From: a virus
Length of the DNA stretch: 39,946 nucleotides
Strand: one strand, 5' to 3'
IMG/VR virus record: IMGVR_UViG_3300034375_008483
Location: 1 to 39,946 of that record
A program made the position numbers and the translations under genes. This document shows positions 16,464 through 17,788 of this stretch, in pieces (within the stretch, counting starts at the first letter, position 1; every line of letters starts with the position of its first letter). The notes below the pieces were generated by a model that saw nothing but the letters and a program-made list of their open reading frames with translations, was not told where the DNA came from and searched no databases.

Positions 16464-16817
16464 ATGAGTGAAGAACTGCTACAATGGGGAGAGGAGCGCG
16501 CTCTGGCGCGGCACGACGACCCGGAAACCTCGCACGATGCTGCGAAGAGCATCAAGGTCTCTGCGAAGGAGGAGATCGTCCTGGAATGCCTTGCCGAATA
16601 CGGTCCGCAAACCAGCATCGAGATTGCCAACCGAACTGGGCTGAATCCCAACACCGTTACGCCCAGGATGAAACCGCTCAAAGAGAAAGGAAAGGTTTAC
16701 GACACGGGGATCCGGAGGAGATCGGAACTTTTGCACCAATGTCCCTGCTGCTCCCATAAATCAACCATCAGGGTCTCGAGGCCGAAGATCGTCTGGGCAT
16801 TAAAGAAGGGAGAATGA
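16464..16817 (+). CDS. Winged-helix protein with C-terminal zinc knuckle
   Basis: 117 aa. It starts MSEELLQWGEERALARHDDPETSHDAAKS, the R-x-DDPxTSHxAA signature common in small phage HTH proteins. A winged helix follows (VLECLAEYGPQTSIEIANRTGLNPNTVTPRMKPLKEKGKVYDTG). A CPCC pair and basic residues close the protein (SRPKIVWALKKGE). It lies between the helicase loader and the methyltransferase, whose start overlaps its stop (ATGA). In other phages this family often sits in the replication region. It likely binds DNA, as a regulator or replication accessory; the target is unknown. Confidence 0.75.
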   Translation: MSEELLQWGEERALARHDDPETSHDAAKSIKVSAKEEIVLECLAEYGPQTSIEIANRTGLNPNTVTPRMKPLKEKGKVYDTGIRRRSELLHQCPCCSHKSTIRVSRPKIVWALKKGE

Positions 16818-17788
16818 ATGAGTTACATTTATTTGCAGGAGCAGGGGGAGGAATCCTCGGCGGAATGCTTCTCGGACATACCACAGTTTGCGCTGTCGAG
16901 ATCGAGGAATACCCTCGAAAGGTCTTACTGCAACGGCAGCGAGACGGAATCCTGCCTCGCTTCCCAATCTGGGACGACATCCAAACCTTCGACGGTAGAC
17001 CGTGGAGAGGGCGCGTCGATGTCGTCTGCGGCGGATTCCCGTGCCAGGACATATCCTCCGCCGGGAAAGGAGCAGGAATTGAGGGAGAGAGATCTGGTTT
17101 GTGGGGAGAAATGGCGCGAGTTATTGGTGAAGTACGACCCCGATTCGTGTTCGTGGAAAACTCACCTATGCTTGTGGGAAGAGGACTTGCCGTGGTCCTC
17201 GGTGACCTTGCCGAAATGGGGTATGATGCGCGATGGGGTGTGCTGGGAGCAGACGACGCAGGAGCGCCCCACCGACGGAAAAGGATCTGGATACTGGCCC
17301 ACTCCGGTTCATTCGGAAGCAAGGCAAGGATACCAGAACCGGAACAACGGGAAGAAGGGGTCGCAAAAGAGCCTGACCACAGCTGTTGTGGACAGGGATC
17401 AGGAAAGAATGCCGACCCCGACCAGTCGAGATTGGAAAGGCAAGAGCGGATCGGGACGACAGGAGAGGAAGGGGCATCCGACCGACACGCTGCCGAACTA
17501 TGTGGACAAGTGGCCGGCACCAAGATTCCCATCACCGACAGCAACGGACTGGAAGCGGGGAGTGGAGTCTCAACAGGCGAGACGGGACAGAGGGGCGCAC
17601 ACGGGTGTAACACTGAACGACGCACTGAACGCTCCTGGTGGGAGGCTGAACCCGAATTGGGTCGAGTGGCTCATGGGGTGGCCTGTCGGGTGGACCGACT
17701 CAAAGCCATTGGAAACGGACAGGTTCCGCAGGTGGCCGCACTCGCATGGAGAATTTTAGCAGAGGACGCTCAAGAGATTCGGTCCTGA
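16814..17788 (+). CDS. Orphan C5 cytosine-specific DNA methyltransferase (Dcm-type)
   Basis: 324 aa. The motifs of m5C methyltransferases are present in order: motif I LFAGAGG (residues 6-12), motif IV GGFPCQDIS with catalytic Cys77, motif VI FVENSP (113-118), motif VIII APHRRKRIWILA (151-162), motif IX RVDRLKAIGN (292-301) and motif X GNGQVP (300-305). The target-recognition region (about 163-280) is hydrophilic and poorly conserved. It should transfer a methyl group from SAM to a cytosine, protecting phage DNA or altering expression. No cognate restriction enzyme gene is nearby. Its full length is also open in the +1 frame (16818-17759), and that product is protein-like; see the next entry. 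Confidence 0.9.
   Translation: MNELHLFAGAGGGILGGMLLGHTTVCAVEIEEYPRKVLLQRQRDGILPRFPIWDDIQTFDGRPWRGRVDVVCGGFPCQDISSAGKGAGIEGERSGLWGEMARVIGEVRPRFVFVENSPMLVGRGLAVVLGDLAEMGYDARWGVLGADDAGAPHRRKRIWILAHSGSFGSKARIPEPEQREEGVAKEPDHSCCGQGSGKNADPDQSRLERQERIGTTGEEGASDRHAAELCGQVAGTKIPITDSNGLEAGSGVSTGETGQRGAHGCNTERRTERSWWEAEPELGRVAHGVACRVDRLKAIGNGQVPQVAALAWRILAEDAQEIRS
16818..17759 (+). CDS. Overprinted +1-frame protein within the methyltransferase gene (WVEWLMGWP family)
   Basis: 313 codons, starting 4 nt after the methyltransferase ATG (tandem ATGs, the TGA of the upstream gene between) and ending 29 nt before its stop. The product carries motifs I recall from separate phage proteins, often labelled hypothetical or methylase: SSAADSRART, WRELLVKYDPDSCSWKT, LPKWGMMRDGVCWE, repeated PTP...DWK units (WPTPVHS, MPTPTSRDWKG, PSPTATDWK) and the C-terminal GRLNPNWVEWLMGWPVGW. 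The WVEWLMGWPVGWTD motif is encoded by the same bases as GRVAHGVACRVDRL, just before motif X of the methyltransferase. The length of open frame and ordered motifs argue against chance. Whether it is translated, and from which start, is unknown; the first 65 codons look least protein-like. Function unknown. Confidence 0.6.
   Translation: MSYIYLQEQGEESSAECFSDIPQFALSRSRNTLERSYCNGSETESCLASQSGTTSKPSTVDRGEGASMSSAADSRARTYPPPGKEQELRERDLVCGEKWRELLVKYDPDSCSWKTHLCLWEEDLPWSSVTLPKWGMMRDGVCWEQTTQERPTDGKGSGYWPTPVHSEARQGYQNRNNGKKGSQKSLTTAVVDRDQERMPTPTSRDWKGKSGSGRQERKGHPTDTLPNYVDKWPAPRFPSPTATDWKRGVESQQARRDRGAHTGVTLNDALNAPGGRLNPNWVEWLMGWPVGWTDSKPLETDRFRRWPHSHGEF

Follow-up and report, generated by a model that had tools for sequence, protein, structure and literature searches.

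Genes and sequence elements of the locus

The stretch of DNA analyzed here (the window) is the IMG/VR virus record IMGVR_UViG_3300034375_008483, positions 1 to 39,946, with a length of 39,946 bases. On its + strand, which carries all features described below unless stated otherwise, two long open reading frames share the same bases. The first one (frame 0, here named alpha) starts with ATG at 16814, ends with TGA at 17788 and codes for 324 aa. The second one (+1 frame, here named beta) starts with ATG at 16818, ends with TAG at 17759, codes for 313 aa and is nested within alpha (16814-17788). Both frames had been described as open from end to end in an earlier reading made from the letters alone (the sequence-only reading), and re-translation gave the same coordinates and peptides.

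Profile matches upstream of the locus comprised an Erf-like annealing protein, an exonuclease VIII, a replication initiation protein and a DnaC-like helicase loader. Downstream, terminase subunits, a head-tail adaptor and a major head protein were found. The methyltransferase is located at the end of the early replication module. No adjacent restriction gene was seen among the ORFs of the window that were examined. An antisense ORF of 285 aa (16768-17625, - strand) covers the same stretch and is presumed to be a consequence of base composition and of the two constrained sense frames.

The starts of alpha and beta are 4 nt apart within the element ATG A ATG AG (16814-16823), and the TGA (16815-16817) of the preceding ORF (16464-16817) overlaps the ATG of alpha. 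The pattern across homologues is NTG A ATG AG, where alpha starts with ATG, GTG or TTG and beta nearly always with ATG 4 nt downstream. Codon choice in the homologues supports this dual start. The Asn of an Asn-Glu-Leu near the alpha start is encoded by AAT in all of 133 cases, compared to a background of 491/1312 (37%), and the Glu by GAG in 131 of 133. This choice retains Met-Ser at the N-terminus of beta. AATGAG is usually retained even when the start of alpha lies farther upstream.

The putative catalytic subunit alpha

Alpha (16814-17788) was assigned to the large domain of C5-cytosine methyltransferases (MTases) based on matches to PF00145 (Pfam, E 4.8e-33, residues 3-170) and to phrog_363 (PHROGs, 3e-73), and on its AF2 model. 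The closest solved fold to this model was M.HhaI with a Z score of 21.9 and 3.1 A over 195 residues. Monomeric MTases were aligned to alpha by hhalign with 99.9%.

Of the motifs of the superfamily, alpha has conserved I, IV (PC), VI (EN), VIII (R.R) and X, and is therefore a member. Motif I (LFAGAGG, 16829-16849) consists of invariant columns, as does motif IV (GGFPCQDIS, 17030-17056), which holds the catalytic Cys77 and is also aligned to monomeric MTases by hhalign. These are followed by motif VI (FVENSP, 17150-17167) with invariant E115 and N116, and by motif VIII (HRRKRIWIL, 17270-17296) with invariant R155 and R157. Motif X (AIGNGQVPQVA, 17705-17737) with invariant G300, N301 and Q303 is constrained in the alpha frame; in five relatives it lies in the beta frame. 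A self-sufficient monomer would carry the recognition domain (TRD) and motif IX in one chain with these motifs, but motif IX was found in the +1 frame. In the AF2 model the pLDDT was 80-97 over most of residues 1-165 and approximately 85 at residues 301-320, the motif X helix. Residues 168-290 in between are predicted to be disordered, and no selection was found on them in frame 0.

The putative recognition subunit beta

Beta (16818-17759) matched phrog_1008 (3.1e-26) over most of its length, with residues 59-296 aligned to positions 29-282 of the profile. Alpha matches the same profile solely at its extreme C-terminus, which is motif X, and the +1 product matches the remainder. The sequence-only reading had assigned the motifs of the +1 product to a separate phage protein family. 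This needs correction, as the product is unlikely to be a family of its own unrelated to the methyltransferase, since its WVEWLMGWPVGWTD element appears to be the motif IX missing from alpha. Besides phrog_1008, searches of Pfam and NCBIfam with beta revealed no family match, and a Pfam search with beta variants carrying motif X gave no MTase match. Likewise, no methyltransferase was found when the beta profile was compared to solved structures, where most of beta was without a recognisable homologue. Modelled alone (AF2), beta reached a pTM of 0.32 and a mean pLDDT of 57, and Foldseek with this low-confidence model gave no meaningful fold match. Such a model might fit a domain that requires its partner.

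The general plan of beta consists of an N-domain (SWKT ... LPxWGMMRxG), one to six PTP modules and the element LNPxWVEWLMGWPxGWTD. The N-domain of the window (residues 96-168, SWKT ... LPKWGMMRDGVCWE) is located at 17103-17321, where both frames are constrained. Three PTP modules were then identified with a repeat HMM at 17292-17393 (YWPTPVHSEARQGYQ...), 17397-17525 (MPTPTSRDWKGKSGSGR...) and 17526-17633 (FPSPTATDWKRGVESQQ...). Among relatives beta becomes longer by ~30 aa with each additional PTP module (Spearman 0.85 for length versus copy number). We consider that these modules probably recognise DNA.

The last element of beta (LNPNWVEWLMGWPVGWTD, 17646-17699) is a putative motif IX. It aligns with the in-frame motif IX of the MTases of mycobacteriophage Tweety, Gordonia phage Neville and Klebsiella phage BL02, and the ratio of differences at alpha position 3 to position 1 is 0.41. 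In Tweety and Neville the element belongs to frame 0 and is flanked by the variable region and motif X; it aligns there with the canonical motif IX of monomeric MTases, e.g. that of BL02. When the beta profile was compared to canonical MTases, the best match was at the position of motif IX as well, but it was short and weak (hhalign probability 5.6%, P 0.007). From these alignments the WVEWLMGWPVGWTD element of beta can be identified as the likely motif IX that alpha is without. In frame 0, the bases that encode WVEWLMGWPVGWTD of beta (17658-17699) read as GRVAHGVACRVDRL and are followed by GNGQVP, exactly as had been noted before. With motif IX in beta and absent from alpha, the two frames most likely represent two subunits of one enzyme.

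An N-domain-like stretch was also seen in the 426-aa MTase of Staphylococcus phage IME-SA4 (gp50), where it was all that the +1 frame held of beta (hmm 66-160, 1e-9). This may be an overprinted N-domain without the rest of beta.

Openness of the two frames

Synonymous shuffles, in which the alpha protein and the codon usage of alpha were held constant, served as null. In the window the +1 run is 313 codons long, compared to a mean of 123 in 200 shuffles, none of which was equally long. With alpha alone as query, 69 unique full-length homologues were retrieved. The +1 frame was open in all 69, with a median of 0.99 of the alpha length versus 0.44 in the shuffle null, and reached an individual P<=0.005 in 52 of them. 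The +2 frame of these homologues was at or below its own shuffle null.

When all scans were pooled, the +1 frame was open over >=90% of the length in 230 of 239 unique alphas and the +2 frame in none (0/239), a set slightly biased to open frames since some of its members had been selected for similarity to beta or for an alpha length of >=630 nt. The same slight bias applies to two regional tests, in which beta was open over codons 10-96 in 154/157 cases (38% expected) and alpha was open over the TRD in 152/152 (16% expected), the latter count being slightly favoured since alphas <630 nt were excluded beforehand. In the same test, the third frame was open in 11% with 11% expected. Each frame is thus open even where just the other is constrained, which argues that both chains are kept whole. 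In monomeric C5 MTases hand-picked from eight phages, the +1 runs covered just 6-28% of the length, and the beta HMM gave no match to these enzymes.

Taken from the homologues, this supports the old overlapping gene pair suggested by the sequence-only reading, and the +1 stops that would be expected in most relatives of a chance frame were not present.

Selection along the gene

In the +1 arrangement the wobble base of an alpha codon is the second base of a beta codon, and the two frames therefore make opposite demands. We compared the differences at codon positions in disjoint pairs of homologues with 75-93% identity, expressed as the ratio of alpha position 3 to position 1. This ratio was ~2.1 in motifs I-III, ~2.0 in motifs IV-VIII and 1.75 in motif X, i.e. 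alpha position 3 changed fastest. The order was reversed in the TRD segment (0.55) and in the motif IX segment (0.41). Here alpha position 1, the wobble base of beta, is the fastest.

A fine profile showed constraint on alpha only to approximately codon 96, on both frames at codons 97-144, on beta only at codons ~169-295 and on alpha again at motif X. Differences at 4-fold sites of alpha dropped from 0.48-0.52 (aa 73-96) to 0.17-0.25 (aa 97-144). The stretch constrained in both frames thus comprises ~50 codons between the alpha-only and the beta-only part. Beta residues 1-90 were under moderate constraint only.

Additionally, 157 diverse sequences contained fixed alpha codons at which the third base sets a Trp, Pro or Gly of beta. 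These were Val114 (GTG in 117/117), Ala133 (GCC in 112/112), Gly136 (GGG in 156/157) and Val285 (GTG in 106/106). Across motif IX of beta the third bases of alpha were nearly invariant. Amino acid changes in the +1 frame are therefore not neutral, a point on which the sequence-only reading had made its own proposal depend.

The frame under selection switches along the gene, from alpha in motifs I-VIII to beta in the TRD and motif IX and back to alpha in motif X. The small domain of C5 MTases is composed of the variable region and motif IX (PMC3404938). The frame switch hence falls at the structural domain boundary of the enzyme.

Distribution and rearrangement in relatives

In 298 of ~320 distinct loci the beta N-domain, motif IX and motif X were found in the frames +1, +1 and 0, respectively. 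The beta N-domain co-occurred with alpha in the great majority of the examined loci. When genomes of bacteria and archaea were scanned with the beta profile, 155 relatives were obtained, 80 of which were kept. Nearly always, alpha was found in the -1 frame across beta. The 80 relatives include Pseudomonas, Acinetobacter, Myxococcus and Geothrix as well as Verrucomicrobia, Planctomycetes, Nitrospirae, Patescibacteria and archaea of the Poseidoniaceae. A megablast search of E. coli genomes with one alpha gave no match; a distant search with the S9-5 gene gave four E. coli chromosomes, with a copy in PT62.

Motif X was located in the +1 frame in five loci. Four of them (L338, L389, L026 and L065) were read through; in each, alpha ends at most ~20 codons past motif VIII, and the former alpha linker contained many stops where it was inspected. 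Alpha thus seems to be kept open just where motif X must be reached. In the actinophages Upyo and Samy, alpha and beta are adjoining genes with motif X in beta, and Bora is similar. Both the relocation of motif X and the side-by-side genes are rearrangements that would be expected if the two frames encode parts of one enzyme. Paenibacillus polymyxa pAP1, where both matches lie under one CDS, was considered as a single-chain fusion and rejected, as beta is in the +1 frame there.

Two further loci showed apparent natural disruptions. In one (L214) motif IX has become part of frame 0 by fusion, with motif X out of frame; in the other (L194) a stop in alpha is followed by a later frame change.

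Comparison with known methyltransferases

In the M.EcoHK31I system the small gene is nested in the large gene in another frame, and its beta is 176 aa long. The window has the same arrangement, with the second gene (16818-17759) inside the first (16814-17788) in the other frame, but beta is modular and comprises 313 aa. M.EcoHK31I is a C5 MTase (YGGCCR) that requires two polypeptides; the larger one contains motifs I-VIII and X, and the smaller one provides motif IX alone (PMC3404938, citing Lee, Kam and Shaw 1995, NAR 23:103). Compared by description, the 298 loci and the motifs of the window share this distribution of I-VIII and X in the large chain and IX in the second. A difference concerns the predicted TRD, which was assigned to the large subunit of M.EcoHK31I in the literature, whereas here the TRD is selected in beta and the middle of alpha is predicted to be disordered. 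This suggests that the location of the recognition domain in enzymes of the M.EcoHK31I type needs revising. EcoHK31I also differs from the window in that no restriction gene was seen beside the locus here among the ORFs inspected.

The second chain of M.AquI (CYCGRG) contains part of the variable region together with motifs IX and X (PMC3404938). As in M.AquI, the C5 MTase of the window is divided into two polypeptides after motif VIII; however, its motif X belongs to alpha in frame 0 and the second chain carries only IX of the two. AquI-like relatives are confined to L338, L389, L026, L065 and the actinophage pairs, some with overlapping frames.

Multispecific MTases of Bacillus phages (SPR, phi3T and SPbeta families) have tandem target-recognition modules in the variable region (PMC8936443). 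The variable region of beta with its one to six tandem modules resembles these in layout. The Bacillus enzymes are single chains, and the SPbetaL3 MTase has no beta frame. For M.BatI, a C5 MTase of a Bacillus prophage, an unusually small size, a very short TRD and a toxicity unrelated to methylation were reported (PMC8936443). In the open literature searched we found no description of the present overlap in phages.

A probable two-subunit enzyme encoded in overlapping frames

In our view, the product of the locus is very likely a two-subunit C5-cytosine DNA methyltransferase of the M.EcoHK31I kind, encoded in two overlapping frames of the same strand. The analysis established the two open frames, the switch in selection between them, the distribution of the motifs and the dual start. 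Alpha would be the large catalytic domain with motifs I-VIII, followed by an unfolded linker and a motif X helix folded back onto this domain; the linker would be no more than an out-of-frame reading of the overprinted recognition region. Beta would be the small domain, with an N-domain overprinted on motifs V-VIII, one to six tandem PTP modules of ~30-40 aa, and motif IX. Since the two starts, separated by 4 nt, share an initiation site (NTGAATGAG), similar amounts of alpha and beta would be expected, and the two might assemble into one active enzyme methylating phage DNA, most likely against host restriction. Translation of beta, assembly with alpha, DNA recognition by the PTP modules and protection of phage DNA are what we infer.

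The selected frame changes exactly at the boundaries that a single chain of motifs I-VIII, TRD, IX and X would need. Such a chain could arise by programmed frameshifting, +1 after motif VIII and back before motif X, so that neither ORF would be a full protein alone. This is very improbable, since beta has a separate, conserved ATG where alpha starts, is open over codons 10-96 and has an N-domain constrained simultaneously with alpha. Furthermore, alpha is open across the TRD, which a double shift would not need, and just ends after motif VIII in L338, L389, L026 and L065.

Another explanation is that beta is a real overprinted protein of unrelated function, e.g. anti-restriction or regulatory. 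Even though beta lacks Pfam and NCBIfam matches and most of it has no recognisable homologue among solved structures, we regard this as very improbable: alpha is without motif IX and a folded TRD while beta supplies IX, motifs IX and X change frame among relatives, the N-domain accompanies alpha in the great majority of loci, and M.EcoHK31I provides a precedent. Long +1 ORFs do occur by chance at high GC (44% of the length on average in the shuffle null), but a +1 frame that is a mere by-product of MTase gene composition and codon use is practically excluded by the open-frame, third-base, codon-position and start-codon tests and by monomeric MTases without such a frame.

The two-subunit reading may be extended, although we hold this with somewhat less than even confidence. 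Across many bacterial phyla and some archaea, cytosine MTases of phages and prophages might form a large class in which a single stretch of DNA encodes the two structural domains in different frames. Their recognition domain might consist of tandem copies of a DNA-reading module not recognised before. One part of this domain, the N-domain of beta, might have originated by overprinting on the catalytic core, and motifs IX and X might have changed frame repeatedly during evolution.

The principle of such an enzyme was already known from one E. coli enzyme, M.EcoHK31I. New are the breadth and age, the recognition domain in beta, the tandem recognition-like repeats and the motifs hopping between frames. 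Outside small viruses, it is rare that strong selection acts on both products of a long same-strand overlap. In the present case the two products are apparently halves of one enzyme, tying the core and the specificity subunit together genetically and in dosage. The locus also offers a clean case in which selection can be measured in two frames simultaneously.

Annotation in public records

In most of the records examined, gene callers give one frame and omit the other. Public records mostly annotate alpha alone, as in ABMM1, S9-5 and E. coli PT62. A cloned or codon-optimised alpha would be without its recognition subunit and seem inactive, and assignments of methylomes to genes would fail. In Pseudomonas phage phPA-G (PP083311.1; L409 801-1529) only beta is annotated, as 'hypothetical protein', and alpha, 4 nt upstream, is absent from the record. 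In addition, parts of beta gave matches to several PHROGs of unknown function. The suggestion that many hypothetical proteins in databases are MTase genes read in the other frame thus applies in places.

Both genes are annotated in Paenibacillus phage Diva (gp49/gp50), where DIVA_50 is beta, a nested hypothetical named 'g49 internal gene'. Together with phrog_363 and phrog_1008 these are database entries for alpha and beta, and they state no function or subunit relation.

Finally, mycobacteriophage Llama (L408 535-1294) seems to have a frame change in the middle of the gene when compared to its close relative Nitzel (L411 535-1293). It apparently splits both alpha and beta and could be explained by a natural double knock-out or by a sequencing error; the Llama locus is annotated as two DNA methylases.
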